A stretch of 36,394 nucleotides of DNA from Gemmatimonadaceae bacterium (GTDB taxonomy: Bacteria; Gemmatimonadota; Gemmatimonadetes; Gemmatimonadales; Gemmatimonadaceae): positions 1 to 36,394 of the forward strand of contig JAICJQ010000021.1 in assembly GCA_025928335.1 (NCBI GenBank), read 5' to 3'. The notes below the pieces were generated by a model that worked only from the letters and a program-made list of their open reading frames with translations, had not been told where the DNA came from and made no database searches. The translations under genes were made by a program, and so were the position numbers. Every line of letters begins with the position of its first letter. Positions within the stretch are counted from its first letter, which is position 1. Of this stretch, positions 17,063-36,394 are shown in pieces.

Positions 17063-17623
17063 TTACGGGACCCAGGTCGTGAAGCGCGCCGCCGGTTCTC
17101 GGGGCTTCGTCGGAGGAACATCGAGCGGCACGCCGACATTCACGATCGCGACGATTCGCTCGTTGTCCGCGACCCCCGCGGCCGCTCGCGCCGCGGGGTC
17201 CGACATCACGCCGCCGGTCTTGATGTGGCTGCCAAGTCCCAGCTCTACCGCGGCGAGCGCCATGTTCTGTACGGCCATCATCGCCGCCGCGTAGTCCTCT
17301 TCGCGAATCTCGGGATCGGTGGCGTTCACGACGGCCACAGCGATCATCAGTGGCAGGTCGCGATGCTCTCGGGCGACCGTCTCGCGGACTTCTCGTCCGC
17401 GCTCGGCATCCTCGAGCTTGCGGGCTTTGCGCTCACCGAGCGCCAACCCGTAGGCGTGCCTCGCCTCGGGACCAAGAACGTAGAAACGCCACGGCTGCGT
17501 GAGTCGATGATTCGGCGCGAGCGCCGCGGCGTCGAGCAACGCCTCGATCTCCTCGCGCGTCACGGGGCGTGAGTCGAAGCGTTTGATCGACCGTCGGGCT
17601 CGAATGGCGTCACGGACTTGCAT
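17063..17623 (-). CDS. Nitroreductase-family FMN oxidoreductase
   Basis: 186 residues from ATG 17623. The frame is open to 17683, but the homology begins at MQVRDAIRARRSIKRFDSRPV, the FMN-binding arginine motif. LLDAAALAPNHRLTQPWRFYVLG and AVQNMALAAVELGLGSHIKTGG are also typical; the C-terminus (VGVPLDVPPTKPREP) matches the usual family end. Members reduce nitro compounds, quinones or flavins with NAD(P)H as soluble homodimers; the substrate cannot be assigned. It is divergent from the LuxR-type gene with a 46-bp gap, so the two may share regulatory sequence. Confidence 0.92.
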   Translation of the reverse strand: MQVRDAIRARRSIKRFDSRPVTREEIEALLDAAALAPNHRLTQPWRFYVLGPEARHAYGLALGERKARKLEDAERGREVRETVAREHRDLPLMIAVAVVNATDPEIREEDYAAAMMAVQNMALAAVELGLGSHIKTGGVMSDPAARAAAGVADNERIVAIVNVGVPLDVPPTKPREPAARFTTWVP

Positions 17624-17669
17624 GCGGTCAAACCTAGCGGCGGCGGGTCGGTCGCGGCGATTTTCCGCC

Positions 17670-18119
17670 GTGCGAAAAATCATTCTCGTTTACGGTCTGC
17701 TCGGCGGCGTACTGATCGCGGGACTCAGGCTGATCGAGTACCGCTATTTGATCGTCGAGCATTCGGTCGAGATCTACGGTGGACTCCTTGCGCTCCTCTT
17801 TTCGGCGCTCGGGATCTGGCTCGGATTGCGGATCACGGGCCGTCGCGAACGTGTCGTCGTGCGCGAGGTGCCTGTCGCGGCCACCACCGGACCATTCATT
17901 CCCGACATCGCTCGGATCGAGCGGCTCGGTATCACGCCCCGCGAGATGGAAATCCTCGAACTGATCGCGGCTGGAATGAGCAACCGCGAAATCGCCGAGA
18001 AGTTGTTCGTCAGCGAGAACACCGTGAAAACACATTCCAGCCGGCTGTTCACCAAGCTGGACGCGCGCCGCCGCACGCAGGTGGTGCAGCGCGCCAAAGA
18101 CGCCGGTCTCATTCCGTAA
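17670..18119 (+). CDS. Membrane-anchored LuxR-type DNA-binding regulator
   Basis: 149 residues from GTG 17670; earlier in-frame starts lie inside the divergent nitroreductase gene and add unrelated basic sequence. Two hydrophobic helices are visible (about 3-20, IILVYGLLGGVLIAGLRL, and 38-56, IYGGLLALLFSALGIWLGL). A short linker leads to a GerE/LuxR helix-turn-helix (about 85-149) with ITPREMEILELIAAGMSNRE and IAEKLFVSENTVKTHSSRLF. There is no receiver domain and no phosphorylatable Asp. It may respond to a membrane signal, or its DNA-binding part may be released. The target is unknown; pepT begins 21 bp downstream and could be cotranscribed. Confidence 0.85.
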   Translation: MRKIILVYGLLGGVLIAGLRLIEYRYLIVEHSVEIYGGLLALLFSALGIWLGLRITGRRERVVVREVPVAATTGPFIPDIARIERLGITPREMEILELIAAGMSNREIAEKLFVSENTVKTHSSRLFTKLDARRRTQVVQRAKDAGLIP

Positions 18120-18140
18120 CGACCCTGTCCTCACGAGCCA

Positions 18141-19382
18141 ATGAATCAACCCAGCGAGTCCGTCGTCGAGCGATTCCTGCGATACGTTCGCGTCGACACC
18201 CAATCGCGCGAAGACGCCACGACGACGCCAAGCACCGATTCACAGTGGACGCTCTCGAGGGGTCTCGTCGAGGAGCTGCGATCGCTCGGCGCGCAAACCG
18301 TCCGAATCAGCGATCATTGCATGATCTACGCGACGATCCCGTCGAATCTTCCGGCCGGCGCCGAAGCCCCCGCACTCGGATTGCTTGCCCACGTCGACAC
18401 GTCACCGGCCGTGAGCGGCGCCGGCGTGACTCCGATCGTGCACCGGGACTACCGCGGCGGCGACATCACGCTGCCCGGCGATCCGACGCAGGTGATCACC
18501 GTCGCGCAGAATCCCGCGCTCAGCGACATGATCGGCGACGATATCATCACGACCGACGGCACGACGCTCCTCGGGTCGGACGACAAGGCCGGTGTCGCCA
18601 CCATCATGACCCTTGTCGACATTCTCGCCCGCAATCCGACGATCCCGCACGGCCCGATTCAAATCGGATTCACGGCCGACGAGGAGATCGGAACCGGCAT
18701 CGACAAATTCGACGTCGAGTCGTTCGGCGCGCGCTTCGCCTATACGGTCGACGGCGGTCCACTCGGCGAGATCAGCGACGAGACGTGGAGCGCTCGTCTG
18801 GCGACAATCGCCATCCGCGGCAAGAACACGCATCCCGGTACGGCGAAAGGTGTGATGGTGAACTCGATGTACGCGCTCGCGGATTTCTTGCTGCGGCTGC
18901 CGCAGGACATGCTTCCCGAAACCACCGAGGACCGCGTCGGCTTCGTCCACCCGTACGCCGGGATCGCCGACGTCGAGGAGTCCAGCATCAAAGTTCTCTT
19001 ACGCGACTTCGAGCTCGACGGGCTGGCGGCGAAGGAACGCCTGCTGCGCGACATCGTCGCCGAAGTCGAGCGGCGTCACGCCGGCATCTCCATTCGCATC
19101 GATATCAAGGAGAACTACAAGAACATGAAGGAGGTGCTGAAGCACCATCCCGAGCTCACACGAAACGCGCTCGAGGCGGCGCGGCGCGCCGGCCTCGAGC
19201 CATTCATGCTCCCGATCCGCGGCGGCACGGACGGCTCCAAGCTCACGTTCCGTGGCTTACCCTGCCCGAACATTTTCACCGGTGGGCACAACTTCCACAG
19301 CAAGCTGGAATTCAACTCTCGCCGAGGACTGGAGAAGACGACGGAAACTCTTCTCCACCTCGTGCAGATCTTCGCCGAGTAG
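18141..19382 (+). CDS. pepT: Peptidase T (tripeptide aminopeptidase)
   Basis: 413-residue cytosolic M20B metallopeptidase that removes the N-terminal residue from tripeptides. Two-zinc ligands are visible: His in LGLLAHVDTSP, bridging Asp in LLGSDDKAGVATIM, catalytic and ligand Glu in IGFTADEEIGTGIDKF, Asp in YTVDGGPLGEI and His in FTGGHNFHSKLEF. The length matches the family. The dimerisation (lid) domain spans about 210-320. ATG 18141 follows a weak ribosome binding site. It converges with the NTF2-like remnant, whose stop is nine bases beyond the pepT stop. Confidence 0.96.
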   Translation: MNQPSESVVERFLRYVRVDTQSREDATTTPSTDSQWTLSRGLVEELRSLGAQTVRISDHCMIYATIPSNLPAGAEAPALGLLAHVDTSPAVSGAGVTPIVHRDYRGGDITLPGDPTQVITVAQNPALSDMIGDDIITTDGTTLLGSDDKAGVATIMTLVDILARNPTIPHGPIQIGFTADEEIGTGIDKFDVESFGARFAYTVDGGPLGEISDETWSARLATIAIRGKNTHPGTAKGVMVNSMYALADFLLRLPQDMLPETTEDRVGFVHPYAGIADVEESSIKVLLRDFELDGLAAKERLLRDIVAEVERRHAGISIRIDIKENYKNMKEVLKHHPELTRNALEAARRAGLEPFMLPIRGGTDGSKLTFRGLPCPNIFTGGHNFHSKLEFNSRRGLEKTTETLLHLVQIFAE

Positions 19383-19391
19383 GCCGGCCGG

Positions 19392-19764
19392 TCAGGGCGT
19401 TTGGTGGGTGCACCCTTCCGTGCGGCGTGAGTCGGCGAGCTGGGTGATCTTCGTCGACGCGCACCTCCGGATCGTAGATCCGCTCGTTCCATACGTCGCC
19501 CGCGGGAGCGCGCGAGATCGCGGCGCCGAATTGTGACGGCATGGTCAGGCTCACGCTTGGCGTTCCGCGGTTGGAAACACCGACCAGGCGCGCCGTGCTA
19601 TCAAACGCCTGGGAGAGCAGTGCAGTGTCCCGGGTTCGCATGGCGTCAAACACCTTCTGGACGGTTGTGAGGATCGCTTCACGATCCGATCCCTGCGCCG
19701 TCGCTGGATGTGGGAGACCGAGAGCGATCAGCGACGACAACAATAGAACGCGCAGTAAGCGCAT
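19392..19764 (-). pseudogene. Secreted NTF2/SnoaL-like protein gene with internal deletion
   Basis: From ATG 19764 (GGAG eight bases upstream) the frame encodes a signal peptide (LLRVLLLSSLIALGLPHPATA) and the first half of an NTF2-like domain (REAILTTVQKVFDAMRTRDT through AGDVWNERIYDPEVRVDE, about 105 residues). The homology then jumps to the next frame, which reads KITQLADSRRTEGCTHQTP and stops at 19392-19394; this is the family's C-terminus. Intact relatives have about 40 more residues between these two parts (strands with a conserved His-Cys-Gly and Gly-Trp-Lys-Ile), so the middle has been deleted. Read without the frame change, the ORF runs into pepT antisense sequence to 19312. It is downstream of and co-oriented with the M28 peptidase. 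Confidence 0.78.
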
Positions 19765-29104: not shown

Positions 29105-29110
29105 TTGAGG

Positions 29111-29139
29111 CGGGGCAAACCAGATCCCCACTTGCCCCG
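29111..29139 (+). terminator. Stem-loop between the lipoprotein gene and the formate dehydrogenase operon
   Basis: Perfect 8-bp inverted repeat CGGGGCAA (29111-29118) / TTGCCCCG (29132-29139) with a 13-base loop, starting seven bases after the lipoprotein stop. No T-run follows, so it is at best an unconventional terminator; it could instead be an operator or leader structure for the fdh operon. Confidence 0.4.
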
Positions 29140-29194
29140 GGCTGCATCCCCCGTGCATTCTCCTAACACCAGTTCCACCTTGGAGATGCACGCG

Positions 29195-31168
29195 ATGCAG
29201 CCCCGTTCCAACCCGCCGGGCGCATACCCCCGCCTGACGCAGCCACTCGTCCGCGACAACGGCGTTCTTCGGCCCGCTTCCTGGGACGAAGCACTCGATC
29301 GCGCCGCCGACGGATTCCGTAAATCCTTGGCGACCCATGGTCGCCAAACCACCGGAATCTTCAGCTGCTCGAAGTCGACCAACGAGGTCAACTTCCTGGC
29401 GTCGAAGTTCGCCCGACAGGTCTTCGGCAACAACAACATCGATAGCTGTAACCGGACCTGACACGCTCCCTCGGTCGTCGGTCTGACGACCATCCTGGGA
29501 GCGGGCGGTTCGACCAGCTCATACGAGGAAGCCGAGCATTGTGACTTCGCCTTCCTCTGGGGATCGAACGCCCGTGAGGCGCATCCGATCTGGTTCCATC
29601 ATCTATTGAAAGGAATCCAGAACGGCGCGCAGCTCTATGTCGTCGATCCGCGTCGCACGACCTCGGCTCAATGGGCCGACGTCTGGATGGGGCTCAACGT
29701 CGGAACGGACATCGCGCTCGCCAATGCGATGGCCCGCGAGATCATTCACGCCGGTCTGCAAGACGATACGTTCATCCAGCGCGGTACCAGCAACTATGCG
29801 GCGTATCGCGCCGCGGTCGAGCCGTACACCCTCGACTTCGCGCAGCGCGAAACAGGAATCCCCGCCGAGGTGATTCGCGATGCCGCGCACGCGTACGCGA
29901 AGGCGGATCGCGCGATGATCTGCTGGACGCTTGGCATCACCGAGCATCACAACGCCGTCGACAACGTCTACGCGCTGATCAACCTCGCGCTGCTCACCGG
30001 TCACGTCGGTCGCTACGGGTGCGGATGCAATCCACTCCGTGGACAGAACAATGTGCAAGGCGGCGGCGACATGGGCGCGCTGCCGAACAAGCTTCCCGGA
30101 TTTCAAGACGTCGAGAAGCCGGACCATCGCATCAAATTCGAGCAGGCGTGGCGCCGCGACATCATCCCGAAAGACGGCTGGCATCTCACCGAGATGATTC
30201 ACGCCATGGAAGCAAAGGAGCTCACCGCGCTCTACGTAATCGGTGAGAATCCCGCGCAGTCCGATGCCGATGCGACTCACGTCACGCATATCCTCGAAAG
30301 CCTCGAGCATCTCGTCGTTCAGGAGATCTTCCTGACGAAAACCGCGCAGCTCGCGCATGTCGTGCTGCCCGCGGCCGCGACGTGGGCCGAGGGCGAAGGC
30401 ACCGTCACGAACAGCGAGCGGCGCGTGCAGCGCGTCCGCAAAGCCGTCGACCCGCCCGATGGCGCGCGCGACGAGATCTGGATCATGTCGGAGCTCGCCA
30501 AGCGGCTCGGCTACGATTGGGGTCACCCCACGGCCGAAGATGTATGGAACGAAGTCCGCGCGCTCTCTCCCCAACTGTATGGAATGAGCTTCGAGCGCCT
30601 CGACCAGCTGGGCGGGATTCAGTGGCCGTGTCCGACACTCGATCATCCGGGGACAAAGTTTCTCCACGCGCGGCTTTGGGAGACCGATCACGCCAAGCGC
30701 GGCAGCGCCGCACCGTTCTCGGTCGTCCACCACGAAGGTCCAGTCGAAAAACCGGACGATGAGTATCCTTTTATACTCACCACCGGCCGCCGGCTCGAGT
30801 CGTACAACACCGGCGTTCAAACCGGCGGCTATCTGTCGCCGCTGCATCGCGGTGAGACGGTCGACATGTCTCCCGAAGACGCGTCCGAGCTTGGCGTCGA
30901 CCACGGCGACCTCGTGCGCGTTACCTCGCGACGCGGCACGGTCGTCGCGCCCGTGTACATCGATCGCGGACTGCGGCGGGGCGTCGTGTTCATGACGCTC
31001 CATTTCCCGGACGACGTCGCGACCAATCTGCTCACGATCAACGCAGCCGACCCGAAGTCCGGCACCGCGGAGTTCAAAGCCTGCGCGGTTCGGGTCGAGC
31101 CGGCGCGGACTGTACCCTCGTATGCGGCAGGTCATCGCGAGACCCTCGCCGCGACCGGAGACGACTGA
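29195..31168 (+). CDS. fdhA: Formate dehydrogenase catalytic subunit, selenoprotein (Sec at TGA 29459-29461), lacking the N-terminal Fe-S domain
   Basis: One 657-residue chain read through an in-frame TGA. Before it lies LASKFARQVFGNNNIDSCNRT; after it HAPSVVGLTTILGAGGSTSS and AFLWGSNAREAHPIWFHHLL. In FdhA proteins the residue between SCNRT and HAPS is the molybdenum-ligating Cys or Sec, followed by the catalytic His, so Sec89-His90 is the active site. A SECIS hairpin follows directly. Both halves carry uninterrupted homology: molybdopterin domains to about 500, then the MGD-binding domain (LTTGRRLESYNTGVQTGGYL). It oxidises formate to CO2. ATG 29195 has GGAG nine bases upstream; ATG 29186 abuts it. 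The chain starts in the linker (YPRLTQPLVRDNG) after the usual Fe-S part, which is encoded at 33220-34242. Its stop overlaps the next gene (TGATG). Confidence 0.92.
29462..29503 (+). promoter_or_regulatory. Bacterial SECIS element for Sec insertion at the fdhA TGA
   Basis: Immediately after the TGA, a two-part hairpin forms. The lower stem CGCTCCC (29464-29470) / GGGAGCG (29497-29503) is 7 bp, and an internal loop of TC against ATCCT follows. The upper stem GGTCGTC (29473-29479) / GACGACC (29485-29491) is 7 bp, with apical loop GGTCT (29480-29484). From family knowledge, the E. coli fdhF SECIS has the same GGUCU loop, also 18 nt after the UGA; SelB recognises it. Unlike fdhF, the upper stem here is fully paired, with no bulged U. 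The structure sits within coding sequence and is compatible with the conserved HAPSVVGLTT peptide. Confidence 0.92.
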
Positions 31169-33141
31169 TGGATCTGCACCTGCGGCACGCCGCCCCGACC
31201 GCTGAGGAACGTGCCGCGGTGGATGCGCTGCTTGGACCGCCGCGTTCGGGATGGGATGGCGGCGAACGAGGAAGCACGTACGACGCACACGTCGCGCACA
31301 CCGGACACGAGGTCCGCGCGCGACGCCATTTGCTTCTCCCTGCGCTGCAAGCACTCCAGTCGCGCGTCGGTTGGATCAGCGAGACTGGGCTCGACTACGT
31401 CTGCACGCGGCTCGACGTGCCGCCGGCCGAGGCGTGGAGCGTCGCCACTTTCTACGCGCTGCTTTCGACCACACCGCGCGCACCACGCGTGCTTCATGTC
31501 TGCGACGACGTCGCGTGCAAATGTCGTGGAGCGAATGAGCTGGTCGCGCATCTCGAGCAGACCGTTGGTCCGGCGCATGCCCACGGTCCCGCCGGCGATC
31601 ACGTCGAGATTCCGAGCGGCGCGACGGTCTGGATGCGGTCACCCTGCCTCGGTCTGTGCGATCACGCACCGGCGGCGTTTCTCCAAGAGGCCGGTCAGCC
31701 GTCGCGCGAAGAGCTGATCGGCGAGCTCACACCGGCACAGGCGAACGACATTCTCTCGGCTCGGGCCGGTCGTCGGGCCGCCATGCGCTCGTCAGGCATG
31801 TATGCGATGCAATGGCTCGCCGACGCCGAGCCGATGATGACGGAGACGCAAACCCTCCGCCTGCCACAGACCGAAACCACGCAGCCTAGCTCGGAGTTGC
31901 GTCTGCTGCGACGCATCGACGCCGTCGACCCGACGAGCATCGCCGGCTATCGCGCGAGCGGCGGCTTCGACGCGCTTCGTCGCGCGATCGAGATCGGTTC
32001 CGAGGCGGTGATTCGCGAGGTCATCGACTCGAAGCTGATGGGGCGAGGTGGTGCGGCGTTCCCGACGGGCCGAAAATGGGAAGCCGTCGCCAAGCAGCCG
32101 GCGCGGCCGCACTACCTCATTTGCAACGCCGACGAATCCGAGCCGGGCACGTTCAAGGATCGCGTCCTCATGGAAGGCGATCCATTCTCGATCGTCGAAG
32201 CGATGGCGATCGCGGGCATCGCGACCGGATGCGAGCGCGGGTTCGTCTATATTCGCGGCGAATATCCGCTGGCCACGCAACGACTGCAACACGCGATCGA
32301 CCAGGCGCGCGCCCACGACTTCCTCGGCGACAACATCATCGGGCGCGGCGTCAAGTTCGACATCGAGATCCGGCGCGGCGCCGGCGCGTACATCTGCGGC
32401 GAAGAAACGGCGATCTTCAATTCGATCGAAGGCTATCGCGGCGAGCCGCGCAACAAACCGCCCTTCCCGGCGCAGGCCGGATTGTTCGGTTTGCCGACGG
32501 TCGTCAACAACGTCGAGACGCTGGCCAATATCCCGTGGATCGTGCTCGAGGGCGGCCAGGCATTCGCGTCGATCGGTGCGGGGGGCCAGTCGACCGGGAC
32601 AAAGCTCTTTTGTCTGAGTGGCAACGTGGCCAATCCTGGCGTATACGAAGTTCCGTTCGGGAAGACGCTGCGCGACCTGATCGGGATGTCGGGCGGCGTC
32701 CAAGGTGGCCGGTCGATTCAGGCGATCCTGCTCGGCGGCGCGGCCGGTGTGTTCGTCGGCCCCGACGAGCTCGACATCCCGCTCACCTTCGAGGGCGCGC
32801 GCGCCGCGAAGGCGACGCTCGGCTCTGGCGTCATTGTCGTGTTCGACGATCGTGCCGACATGCCGGACGTCCTTGTACGGATTGCATCGTTTTTCCGCGA
32901 TGAATCGTGCGGTCAATGCGTCCCCTGCCGAGTCGGCACGGTGCGACAGGAGGAAGCGCTCTACCGCATCGCCAGCGGAAAAACGCTCGGCGGCGTAGCC
33001 CAAGAGGTCGCCCTGCTCGACGAGGTTGGCCTCGCGATGAAGGACGCCTCGATCTGCGGACTCGGCCAAACCGCCTACGCCGCGATCGAATCCGCGATCC
33101 ACCGCGTTGGTTTGATCCCACTGGGGTCAGACCCCAATTAG
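31168..33141 (+). CDS. Formate dehydrogenase NuoE-NuoF fusion subunit (NAD+-reducing, FMN and Fe-S)
   Basis: 657 residues joining two subunits that are usually separate. The NuoE/FdsG-like part (about 35-205) holds the [2Fe-2S] cysteines in VCDDVACKC and SPCLGLCDHAP. A linker of about 50 residues leads to the NuoF/FdsB-like part (about 240-650). The latter has the NADH/FMN site in GRGGAAFPTGRKW and CNADESEPGTFKDR, the SLBB region near 490, and the [4Fe-4S] cysteines in ESCGQCVPCRVGT with ICGLGQTA. It passes electrons from the formate dehydrogenase to NAD+ in the cytoplasm. ATG 31168 shares one base with the fdhA stop. The last residues, GSDPN, are encoded by a copy of the TGGGGTCAGACCCC repeat, so the native C-terminus may have been altered. 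Confidence 0.93.
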   Translation: MDLHLRHAAPTAEERAAVDALLGPPRSGWDGGERGSTYDAHVAHTGHEVRARRHLLLPALQALQSRVGWISETGLDYVCTRLDVPPAEAWSVATFYALLSTTPRAPRVLHVCDDVACKCRGANELVAHLEQTVGPAHAHGPAGDHVEIPSGATVWMRSPCLGLCDHAPAAFLQEAGQPSREELIGELTPAQANDILSARAGRRAAMRSSGMYAMQWLADAEPMMTETQTLRLPQTETTQPSSELRLLRRIDAVDPTSIAGYRASGGFDALRRAIEIGSEAVIREVIDSKLMGRGGAAFPTGRKWEAVAKQPARPHYLICNADESEPGTFKDRVLMEGDPFSIVEAMAIAGIATGCERGFVYIRGEYPLATQRLQHAIDQARAHDFLGDNIIGRGVKFDIEIRRGAGAYICGEETAIFNSIEGYRGEPRNKPPFPAQAGLFGLPTVVNNVETLANIPWIVLEGGQAFASIGAGGQSTGTKLFCLSGNVANPGVYEVPFGKTLRDLIGMSGGVQGGRSIQAILLGGAAGVFVGPDELDIPLTFEGARAAKATLGSGVIVVFDDRADMPDVLVRIASFFRDESCGQCVPCRVGTVRQEEALYRIASGKTLGGVAQEVALLDEVGLAMKDASICGLGQTAYAAIESAIHRVGLIPLGSDPN

Positions 33142-33159: not shown

Positions 33160-33184
33160 TGGGGTCAGACCCCGAAATGGGAAT
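33160..33184. repeat. Palindromic TGGGGTCAGACCCC repeat, copy 2
   Basis: Second direct copy, TGGGGTCAGACCCC at 33160-33173, again followed after five bases by GGGAAT. It lies in the 78-bp gap before the Fe-S subunit gene, upstream of its ribosome binding site. Transcribed, each copy gives a short GC hairpin that could stabilise or attenuate the operon mRNA. Confidence 0.8.
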
Positions 33185-33219: not shown

Positions 33220-34242
33220 TTGACCGCTGTCGCTACAGGACCCCTCGTTCAGCTGCAACGACCGACCTTCGCCACTGATCAGAAGCGGCGAAACTCGGTG
33301 CGCACCGTTACGCTCACGATCGACGGGCAGGCCGTCACGGTGCGCGAAGGCACGACGGTGCTCGAGGCGTGTCGATCGATTGGTATCGAGATTCCGACGC
33401 TCTGTTTTCTCGAGACGCTCCATCCGGTGAACGCGTGCCGCATCTGCGTCGTGGAGATGGAAGGAGCGCGAGTTCTCGTGCCATCCTGCTCGCGCGCCGC
33501 CGAAGAAGGAATGGTCATCAAGACCAAGTCGGAGCGCGTGAACCACAGCCGCAAGCTCGTGCTCGAGATGCTCGCTTCGTCCGTGGATCTCTCGACGACG
33601 CCAAAGGTCGCCGAGTGGATCGAGGAGTATGCGGCGAAACCCGCCCGCTTCGGTCCGCCCGCTCCTCCCGCGCCGGCCGGAACACGCGACGCGTCGATCC
33701 CAGGGCATCATGGGACGCCCGATGCGCGATACGCCGCGACCGTCGCCGAGCCGGCCAAGGTGGACAACGATCTGTACGTCCGCGACTACGCGAAATGCAT
33801 CCTCTGCTACAAATGCGTGGAGGCATGCGGTCCAGATCACCAGAACACGTTCGCGATCGCGGTCGCCGGTCGCGGATTCGACGCGCACATCTCGACGGAG
33901 TTCGCCGTCCCGCTTCCCGAATCGGCGTGCGTCTACTGCGGCAATTGCATCGCGGTCTGTCCCACCGGCGCGCTCATGGCGAAAAAGGAGTTCGACATGC
34001 GCGCCGACGGTAGTTGGGACGAGTCGCGCCAGACGACGACCGACACCATCTGCCCGTATTGCGGCGTCGGGTGCACGCTCAGCCTGCACGTGCAGGACGG
34101 TGAGATCGTGAAAGCGACCTCGCCGCTCGAGAATTCGATCACGCAGGGCAATTTGTGCATCAAGGGCCGCTTCGGCTGGCGCTTCGTGCAGAACACCGCC
34201 GCCGGCACGCCGACGCATAGTGGGAGCGATGGCGGTCACTGA
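33220..34242 (+). CDS. Formate dehydrogenase Fe-S subunit: detached N-terminal domain of FdhA
   Basis: 340 residues from TTG 33220 (GGAG at 33211-33214, five bases upstream). A [2Fe-2S] ferredoxin domain (about 28-105; cysteines in PTLCFLE, ACRICVVE, VPSCSR) comes first. The usual His-Cys3 [4Fe-4S] motif after it is absent (VLEMLASSVDLSTTPKVAEW). Two ferredoxin [4Fe-4S] motifs follow (KCILCYKCVEACG near 195; SACVYCGNCIAVCPTGA near 235). Last is the molybdopterin-enzyme [4Fe-4S] domain (about 275-325), TICPYCGVGCTL and GNLCIKGRFGW, including the Lys that links cluster and molybdenum cofactor in E. coli FDH-H. In ordinary FdhA all this is fused in front of the catalytic domain; here the chain ends right at that junction. 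It must pair with the Sec subunit to complete the active site. Confidence 0.92.
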   Translation: MTAVATGPLVQLQRPTFATDQKRRNSVRTVTLTIDGQAVTVREGTTVLEACRSIGIEIPTLCFLETLHPVNACRICVVEMEGARVLVPSCSRAAEEGMVIKTKSERVNHSRKLVLEMLASSVDLSTTPKVAEWIEEYAAKPARFGPPAPPAPAGTRDASIPGHHGTPDARYAATVAEPAKVDNDLYVRDYAKCILCYKCVEACGPDHQNTFAIAVAGRGFDAHISTEFAVPLPESACVYCGNCIAVCPTGALMAKKEFDMRADGSWDESRQTTTDTICPYCGVGCTLSLHVQDGEIVKATSPLENSITQGNLCIKGRFGWRFVQNTAAGTPTHSGSDGGH

Positions 34243-35077
34243 TCATCCGCTCGTCGGGTTGGGATACGCGCGACCGTCGGAGCCCAGAGAATTCATTCGG
34301 CTTCGAGGACACGATGCGACGTCGTCGTCGGCGGTCGTCGCTGAGGAAGTACCGGTCGCGCTGGTCTACAACGGACGACCGTACGTCGTCGTCATGGCCA
34401 CGCCGGTCGACCTCGAGGATCTCGCCGTCGGGTTCAGCGTCACCGAGGGCGTCGTCGCTGGAGCGAGTGACGTGCGTGGCATGGAAGTCGTGCGCGCGAG
34501 CCACGGCATCGAAGTGCAGATGGAAGTTTCGGCGGCCGACGCCGAGCGGCTGAGCGATCGTGCGCGCGGTTTGGTGTCGCGCACCGGGTGCGGCCTCTGC
34601 GGAGTCGAGACCATTGGCGACGTCCTGCGCCTTCCGGCCATCGTCGCGAACTCGTTGTTCGTCTCCCCCGATGCGTTGTGGAAGGCGGCAAGCGAGCTCT
34701 CGCGTCGTCAGACGATCAACAACGAAACGAGCACCGTGCACGGCGCCGGCTGGGCGACGGCCGACGGCGAGCTGCACGTGGTTCGTGAGGATGTCGGGCG
34801 GCACAACGCGCTCGATAAAGTGCTCGGCGCGTTGGCTCGCGCCGGACGACCGTCGAACGGCGGCTTCGTGGTCGTGACGAGCCGGGCGAGCTACGAGATG
34901 GTGCAGAAGGCCGCGATGTGCGGCGTCGAGCTGTTGGCGGCAATTTCACGTCCGACCGGCCTCGCGATTCGCTTCGCGGAAGCCGCCAACGTAACCCTCG
35001 CCGCGCTCGTACGAGGCGAGAGTGGCAACGTGTACTGTCATCCCCACCGGATTTCACCGACGCAACTTCAGGAGTAA
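34229..35077 (+). CDS. fdhD: FdhD, sulfurtransferase for formate dehydrogenase cofactor
   Basis: 282 residues from ATG 34229; a GTG at 34220 in frame would add three residues, and neither choice has an ideally spaced ribosome binding site. FdhD carries sulfur from a cysteine desulfurase to the bis-MGD cofactor, which formate dehydrogenases need for activity. The conserved C-x-x-C is in RTGCGLCGVE. EEVPVALVYNGRPYVVVMATP, INNETSTVHGAGWA, REDVGRHNALDKVLG and TSRASYEMVQKAA are all family blocks. It overlaps the Fe-S subunit gene by 14 bp, so it is coupled to the enzyme it matures. Confidence 0.95.
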   Translation: MAVTDHPLVGLGYARPSEPREFIRLRGHDATSSSAVVAEEVPVALVYNGRPYVVVMATPVDLEDLAVGFSVTEGVVAGASDVRGMEVVRASHGIEVQMEVSAADAERLSDRARGLVSRTGCGLCGVETIGDVLRLPAIVANSLFVSPDALWKAASELSRRQTINNETSTVHGAGWATADGELHVVREDVGRHNALDKVLGALARAGRPSNGGFVVVTSRASYEMVQKAAMCGVELLAAISRPTGLAIRFAEAANVTLAALVRGESGNVYCHPHRISPTQLQE

Positions 35078-35080
35078 GAC

Positions 35081-36394
35081 GTGAGCACCTCCGTGGTCCC
35101 CTCCGATATCGAAATCGCGCAGCGCGTCAAGATGCGTCCCATCGAGGACGTCGCCGCCGAACTGGGTCTCGAGCGCGACGAGCTCGATCTGTATGGCAAA
35201 TACAAGGCGAAGATTCCGCTCGAGGTCTCGCAGCGTCCGGTGCGCGGGCGGCTCGTCGTCGTGACGGCGACGAATCCGACGCCGGCCGGTGAAGGGAAGA
35301 GCACGGTCTCCGTCGGACTGGCGCAGGCGCTGCGTCGCATGGGGAAGCAGGTCGCGCTCTGCATTCGCGAGCCAAGTCTTGGCCCGGTGTTCGGCGTGAA
35401 GGGTGGCGCGGCCGGTGGTGGCTACGCGCAGGTCGTGCCGATGGACGACATCAATCTCCACTTCACCGGGGATTTCCACGCGATCTCGAGCGCGCACGCG
35501 CTCCTTGCCGCGTTGCTCGACAACCATCTGCACCAGGGGAACGCGCTGGGGATCGACCCGCGCCGCATCACCTGGCCGCGCACGATCGACATGAACGACC
35601 GCGCGCTGCGCAACGTGATCGTCGGGCTTGGCGGCGCCGCGGACGGCGTGCCGCGCGAGGAGCGTTTCGTCATCATTCCGGCCAGCGAGATCATGGCGAT
35701 CGTCGCCCTGGCGACGAGCCCGCAGGACCTCGAGGAGCGGTTGGCGCGGATCATCGTCGGGTCGACGTACGGCTCGGCCAAGCGGCCCGTCACCGCGGGT
35801 GAGCTGCGGGCGACGGGCGCGATGGCGCTTCTGCTCAAGGACGCCATCCGCCCCAATATCGTGCAAACGCTCGAGGGCGGACCGGCCTTCGTGCACGCGG
35901 GACCCTTCGGCAACATCGCGCATGGCTGCAACAGCATCCTCGCCACTCGCTCGGCGCTTGCCCTTGCCGACATCGTCGTCACCGAAGCCGGCTTCGGCTC
36001 GGACCTCGGCGTAGAAAAGTTCTTTAATATCAAGTGTCGAATGGGGGGGCTGCAGCCCGAGGCGGCGGTGGTCGTCGCGACGGTGCGGTCGCTCAAGATG
36101 CACGGCGGCGCCGACAAGAAAAACCTCGGGGTGGAGGATCTCGACGCTCTGCGCCGCGGCCTGCCGAATCTGGAGAAGCATATCGAGAACGTGAGGCACT
36201 TCGGCGTGCCCGGTGTCGTCGCGCTCAATCGGCGGAGCTCGGACACCGACGCCGAGCTGCGCGTGATCGCGGAGTACGTCGAGTCGCTCGGCGTTCCGGT
36301 TGCCCTGACGGAAGTCTGGGAGAAGGGCGGGGCCGGCGGCGAAGCGCTCGGCACGGAGCTGCTTTCGCTGCTCGACAAGAAGCAGGCGGAATTC
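35081..36394 (+). CDS. fhs: Formate-tetrahydrofolate ligase, 3' end outside the window
   Basis: 438 residues visible of a protein normally about 550 long; the frame is open at the window end. It makes 10-formyl-tetrahydrofolate from formate, ATP and THF. The P-loop [18 protein letters not shown] is near residue 67, followed by [71 protein letters not shown] and [20 protein letters not shown], all highly conserved. The start is GTG 35081 with AGGAG six bases upstream, three bases after the fdhD stop, so it belongs to the same operon. Its presence links formate oxidation to folate C1 metabolism. Confidence 0.96.

Follow-up and report, generated by a model that had tools for sequence, protein, structure and literature searches.

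A probable NAD-coupled, selenocysteine-containing formate dehydrogenase in Gemmatimonadota with its alpha subunit split into two genes

We propose that a soil bacterium of the Gemmatimonadaceae very likely encodes a formate dehydrogenase that is coupled to NAD and contains selenocysteine (Sec), and whose alpha subunit is divided between two genes in permuted order. The genes lie at the end of a 36,394-nucleotide stretch (positions 1 to 36,394 of contig JAICJQ010000021.1, assembly GCA_025928335.1), which we call the window. The catalytic part of the alpha subunit is encoded by fdhA-cat, which has a TGA codon at the active site, and the iron-sulfur part is encoded by a separate gene, fdhN. Between them lies a gene for a NuoE-NuoF fusion, and fdhN is followed by fdhD and fhs. 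We think that the split alpha subunit is a more unusual feature than the use of Sec.

Table 1. Features of the proposed formate dehydrogenase operon, in window coordinates
Feature	Position	Strand	Remarks
fdhA-cat	29195..31168	+	Catalytic part of formate dehydrogenase alpha subunit; 657 residues including the putative Sec89
TGA, putative Sec codon (residue 89)	29459..29461	+	Motif SCNRT-U-HAPS
SECIS-like hairpin	29464..29503	+	Upper stem 29474-29479 with 29485-29490; loop GGUCU 29480-29484
NuoE-NuoF fusion	31168..33141	+	Diaphorase: thioredoxin-like [2Fe-2S], FMN/NAD domain, [4Fe-4S]
fdhN	33220..34242	+	Fe-S protein with FdhA N-terminal [4Fe-4S] domain
fdhN, predicted ligands			[2Fe-2S] C62, C73, C76, C90; two [4Fe-4S] motifs C193-C203, C237-C247
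fdhN, last domain			FdhA-type [4Fe-4S] C278, C281, C285, C313, with Lys315
Molybdop_Fe4S4 core within fdhN	34051..34164	+	Codons C278 to Lys315; normally FdhA N-terminus
fdhD	34220..35077	+	Sulfurtransferase for formate dehydrogenase
fhs	35081..36394	+	Formate-tetrahydrofolate ligase; cut by window end

The preliminary description of this DNA had placed the TGA at the catalytic Sec/Cys position of a formate dehydrogenase alpha subunit (FdhA), with homology on both sides, and had expected that ordinary gene calling would yield two fragments. Both statements were borne out. The identity of relatives to the window protein (mean of 28) is 71% for residues 12-88 and 71% for residues 90-640, and the listing of open reading frames breaks fdhA-cat into 29105-29461 (118 amino acids) and 29606-31168 (520 amino acids). 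We assumed that translation starts at the ATG at 29195, but there is a second in-frame ATG at 29186; from 29195 to 31168, the TGA is the sole interruption of the frame. If the TGA is read through, the protein matches positions 52-672 of the 672 positions of TIGR01591 (Fdh-alpha) with a score of 651.6 bits, which is slightly below the curated cut-off of 666.25, and it contains the molybdopterin and dinucleotide-binding domains of FdhA (PF00384 and PF01568). Residue 89 (the TGA), H90, and R282 are invariant among 29 aligned relatives. By analogy with E. coli FdhF, we take Sec89, His90, and Arg282, as well as Lys315 of FdhN, to have catalytic roles.

In our sample of 298 genomes of the phylum, 34 have a close homologue with the in-frame TGA (66-83% identity; in one genome, G169, it is in two pieces). 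We also scanned named genomes, and we examined the best 80 of at least 589 relatives. In these 80 loci, the codon at the Sec site is TGA in 68, TGC in 9, and TGT in 3, so aligning the homologs at residue 89, as had been suggested, turned up only TGA or cysteine codons. Alternatively, the TGA could be a true stop codon (in a pseudogene, because of a sequencing error, or between two short genes), and there would be no selenoenzyme. The two pieces from ORF calling fit this explanation, but we consider it highly improbable. Given that the TGA recurs in so many genomes of the phylum and in most of the best 80 named loci, a chance stop, a pseudogene, or a sequencing error is unlikely; the even conservation before and after the TGA and the cysteine codons as its sole alternatives among these 80 relatives also argue against it.

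The presence of the full machinery for Sec in the same genome is further evidence against a true stop. This genome (4.52 Mb in 281 contigs; 79% complete, with no match to 16S) contains selA (contig C210), selB (C118), selD (C38), and a tRNA-Sec just 3' of selD, each above the cut-off for its family, and ARAGORN identified the anticodon of the tRNA-Sec as UCA. These are all of the components that the preliminary description had proposed to look for. Across the phylum, selA is above the cut-off in 220 of the 298 sampled genomes, and it is listed for 32 of the 34 genomes that have the close TGA homologue. The remaining two genomes (G211 and G038) have selB above the cut-off, and a tRNA-Sec above the cut-off was found in G211 but not in G038. 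We also scanned for tRNAs in 111 loci (the 80 named loci, which are the best 80 of at least 589, and 31 loci from the phylum) and found tRNA-Sec beside formate dehydrogenase in four named loci (L123, L124, L154, and L158). Both selA and selD are in all four of these neighbourhoods and selB is in three of them. The selD of the window's genome (L010:1501-2622) has its own in-frame TGA near the start and is directly followed by tRNA-Sec. A weak match to SelB beside a cysteine-type formate dehydrogenase (L161) was considered as a relic of Sec use, but by eye the sequence reads as EF-Tu, and we rejected it.

It had also been suggested that, if the host belongs to Gemmatimonadota, the enzyme would imply a Sec system in a phylum with no known described example. 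The system is present, and in titles and the starts of abstracts we found no text that describes Sec or selenoproteins in Gemmatimonadota, Gemmatimonadetes, or Gemmatimonas; however, as the counts for selA show, the system is not peculiar to this genome. Titles and the starts of abstracts also gave nothing on point for fdhA or the oxidation of formate in this phylum. The name of the phylum is absent from the main texts of PMC5029168, PMC5322559, PMC1794560, and PMC9312934. The main text of PMC5029168 reports selD in almost all bacterial lineages, and its species table is in the supplement.

Just downstream of the UGA, the RNA folds as a stem with a GGUCU loop, as would be expected for a bacterial SECIS element. 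(In E. coli FdhF, the SECIS has a GGUCU loop at about the same place.) The hairpin matches Rfam's SECIS_3 with 31.7 bits (E = 3.4e-5 in a search of 606 bases), but the gathering score for this family is 63, and no SECIS families were found at Rfam gathering scores. This shortfall is the other point in favour of a true stop. To compare the hairpin across relatives, we tallied distinct sequences only (87 TGA 48-mers, with 13 cysteine copies for contrast). The loop is GGTCT in 85 of the 87 TGA sequences versus 1 of the 13 cysteine copies. Similarly, 99.6% of cells in the six-pair upper stem are paired across the TGA sequences, while three of the upper-stem pairs are intact in only 23-31% of the cysteine copies. 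From these alignments, the hairpin appears to have been retained with TGA and to have decayed in the cysteine relatives, which is hard to reconcile with a true stop.

The pattern of covariation within the stem is mixed. In six sequences, a C-G pair is changed to G-C via two synonymous changes. This is the only stem pair that changed on both sides, and 173 of 500 shuffles equalled this count. The covariation score of the hairpin and the number of its double-change cells both exceeded all 500 shuffles. But if the stem partners are slid by +3 columns, 87.4% of cells still pair, and there are 11 double-change cells as compared to 6 without sliding. The lower stem is poorly kept, as 3 of its 7 pairs hold in just 18-55% of the TGA copies.

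Although the identification as FdhA stood, the picture of one gene interrupted by a TGA did not account for the whole subunit: even the read-through protein is short at its N terminus. In FdhA as modelled by TIGR01591, an N-terminal [4Fe-4S] domain is part of the same chain, and fdhA-cat does not contain this domain. Instead, positions 1-51 of TIGR01591 (Molybdop_Fe4S4) match the end of FdhN. The two proteins together correspond to one solved chain (6tg9_A), with FdhN aligning to 24-303 and FdhA-cat aligning to 305-933. That chain is the alpha subunit of FdsABG from Rhodobacter capsulatus, which has Cys at the active site. As in FdsABG-type enzymes, the operon encodes a NuoE/NuoF-type diaphorase and a NuoG-like Fe-S part, and in sum the same components are present: a 2Fe-2S/4Fe-4S part, a proximal Fe4S4 domain, a pterin part, and a NuoF-type beta subunit. 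Unlike in FdsABG, the Fe-S and pterin parts are not in one alpha chain but in two genes in reversed order, and the active site would contain Sec.

An AlphaFold model of FdhA-cat (from 29 sequences) was of middling confidence (mean pLDDT of 73.3 and pTM of 0.74), and its top matches from Foldseek were 7vw6 and 1fdi (TM-scores of 0.71 and 0.70 by query length, with rmsd above 6). The first is FDH1 of Methylorubrum extorquens (also 7e5z), whose beta subunit matches the NuoF part and is also a NuoE-NuoF fusion. In contrast to our proposal, the alpha subunit of FDH1 is a single chain, and the two proteins match 68-341 and 371-983 of 7e5z_A. The second is E. coli FdhF (formate dehydrogenase H, also 1aa6), a Sec enzyme to which FdhA-cat has a strong match in both sequence and fold; FdhF keeps the Fe4S4 domain in its chain, and FdhA-cat matches it only from residue 60. 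FdhA-cat also has a distant match to FwdB of formylmethanofuran dehydrogenase. In FwdB/FwdD, an FDH-like alpha chain is divided between genes as well, but there it is the C-terminal pterin-binding domain that is detached, whereas here the detached piece is the N-terminal Fe-S part.

To see if the split is conserved, we compiled 112 loci: 31 regions from the phylum, the window, and the 80 named loci (the best 80 of at least 589). Six of these are repeats (L111, L113, L116, L121, L122, and L126 are the same as L051, L057, L058, L068, L071, and L075). We found the split, in permuted order, in 90 of the 112 loci (85 without repeats). In all 90 loci where the Fe4S4 domain was detected (at above 55% identity), it lies downstream on the same strand; in the other 22 loci, the available sequence ends before or inside the position of fdhN. 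As far as the sequence reaches, no Fe4S4 motif is found upstream in the frame of fdhA-cat in any of the 112 loci, where the lead is short in some contigs (about 60 codons in L058 and L116) and the frame of three loci runs open to the start of the contig. The 16 cluster-cysteine patterns and the lysine of the CxKG motif, which is presumably equivalent to the electron-transfer residue Lys44 of E. coli FdhF, are present in all 90 FdhN proteins. The matched cluster domain is followed by a median of 6 residues; the exception is L059, where the frame stays open for another 565 codons, which may be a frame error.

These results also bear on whether FdhN is the donor of the proximal cluster. Sec could be inserted into an FdhA-cat that is self-sufficient, or FdhN could serve a different enzyme and have nothing but the operon in common with FdhA-cat. 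DMSO reductase and some other members of the wider Mo-bisPGD family do not have such a cluster domain, which would allow for this. Nevertheless, we judge it to be unlikely: in all 90 loci with a detected FdhN, it follows FdhA-cat; the domain at its end is the very one that FdhA-cat is missing; and the ligands and the lysine are conserved throughout. We therefore prefer the reading in which FdhA-cat and FdhN would assemble into one alpha subunit. We also considered the absence of an N5-like His-ligated cluster motif as a feature of FdhN. The motif is absent from all 76 of the FdhN proteins that were checked (of the 90, those that match the [2Fe-2S] pattern), but five of the six fused controls lack it too, and in the sixth the match falls on an ordinary ferredoxin motif, so we dropped this idea.

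The rest of the operon is less constant. The position of fdhD varies among the loci. In seven loci from Chloroflexi or Thermomicrobiales (L123, L145, L151, L154, L158, L160, and L163), the NuoE-NuoF gene is about 2 to 8 kb from fdhA-cat and not adjacent to it. In a genome from the same genus, the operon is flanked by seemingly unrelated genes (for efflux parts, amino-acid metabolism, a histidine kinase, and a permease). A scan for promoters and terminators gave nothing useful. The near-palindrome GGGGTCAGACCCC occurs twice, at 33123-33135 (where the NuoE-NuoF frame contains it at its 3' end) and at 33161-33173, where 0.07 matches would be expected by chance (on both strands, with up to 1 mismatch); the pair is possibly a REP-like element. 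Elsewhere in the window, a frame of 609 amino acids (17618-19447) has no match in Pfam or NCBIfam and may or may not be a gene.

Relatives of the split type are taxonomically broad. By the titles of their records, the best 80 of at least 589 come from about ten phyla: Gemmatimonadota, Actinomycetota, Chloroflexi, Thermomicrobiales, Acidobacteria, Rokuibacteriota, Eremiobacterota, Dormiibacterota, Planctomycetota, and Archangium. Since most of these records are metagenome-assembled genomes, the title for any single taxon may be wrong. In plasmid records, all 231 of the 231 FdhA proteins were below 60% identity. We built a quick tree, with long branches between the fused and split groups, and used it for the separation of these groups and for placing the cysteine copies. 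On one side are the nine fused proteins, apart from the split group. The 13 cysteine copies lie within a single clade of 15 rows, along with two Sec copies (support of 100), from Streptosporangiaceae, Pseudonocardiaceae, and Actinoallomurus. Actinoallomurus iriomotensis (L157:6999-10896) has a tandem pair of split-type catalytic genes in front of a single NuoEF-FdhN set; the leading gene has TGA at the site and the other has TGC.

The phylum also contains fused proteins. Nine regions (L082-L090) encode a distant FdhA in which, as in ordinary formate dehydrogenases, a single frame runs from the Fe4S4 domain into the catalytic part; in L090, there is a stop between the ferredoxin part and the Fe4S4-catalytic frame. 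A second family of FdhA in the phylum is fused and putatively contains Sec (NCSRA-U-HAP and variants; L083, L084, L085, L088, L089, L091-L098, L100, and L108), and in all 13 of its 13 distinct copies the GGTCT loop is as far from the TGA as in the split type. Members that we compared (L083, L084, L085, L088, and L089) resemble fdhA-cat in having the TGA at the same site and the loop at the same distance, but their catalytic parts are only about 42-43% identical and the Fe4S4 domain is directly N-terminal in the same frame. In many fused FdhA there is a TAG beside the TGA, and we considered if it was a second recoded stop; the near-end TAGs that we examined are ordinary last stops, so this was rejected.

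We propose the following mechanism, whose steps after the insertion of Sec draw on knowledge of the family. SelA, SelB, SelD, and tRNA-Sec would insert Sec at the UGA, guided by the downstream hairpin. The predicted Sec89, together with His90 and Arg282 at a Mo/W-bisMGD centre, would take electrons from formate, and these would pass from one subunit to the other, reaching the proximal [4Fe-4S] cluster on the separate polypeptide FdhN. The other clusters of FdhN would pass the electrons to the NuoE-NuoF fusion and on to NAD. FdhD would activate the cofactor, and the neighbouring Fhs may link formate to the folate one-carbon pool.

Formate oxidation is the more likely direction. The complex could instead be mainly a CO2 reductase that supplies formate to Fhs for one-carbon assimilation. 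Metal-dependent formate dehydrogenases can run both ways, and fhs is 3' of fdhD in the window and in 17 other loci from Gemmatimonadota (two of them repeats). On the other hand, we detected fhs in no more than 14 of the phylum set's 32 regions (including the window) and in 22 of the 112 loci overall, and oxidation is the easier direction with an NADH-linked diaphorase. We give CO2 reduction as the main role a small but appreciable chance.

If our proposal for the enzyme is correct, it would extend the use of Sec to a major phylum of soil bacteria in which we found no description of it, even though selA is so common in the sampled genomes. We also found no description of a split formate dehydrogenase in the literature, including the available text of PMC8808070, PMC13397495, PMC7325909, PMC7365893, and PMC8318568 and few subscription papers. 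Dividing the alpha subunit in this way would give a much-studied enzyme of CO2 and formate a new architecture. Such enzymes are probably undercounted because the missing domain drops the score under the cut-off for FdhA and because the UGA breaks ORF calling. The split could be tested without selenium, because cysteine copies occur in named strains of actinomycetes (e.g., Nonomuraea and Herbidospora). More tentatively, and we think this has less than an even chance of being right, these proteins may form a widespread and mostly selenium-dependent clade of formate dehydrogenases with a detachable catalytic subunit, in which the pterin/Sec chain and the proximal-cluster chain meet only in the complex. 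With separate chains, the cell could make, sulfurate (through FdhD), or replace the catalytic chain independently of its partner. If so, the tandem Sec and cysteine genes of A. iriomotensis would illustrate such an exchange in nature.
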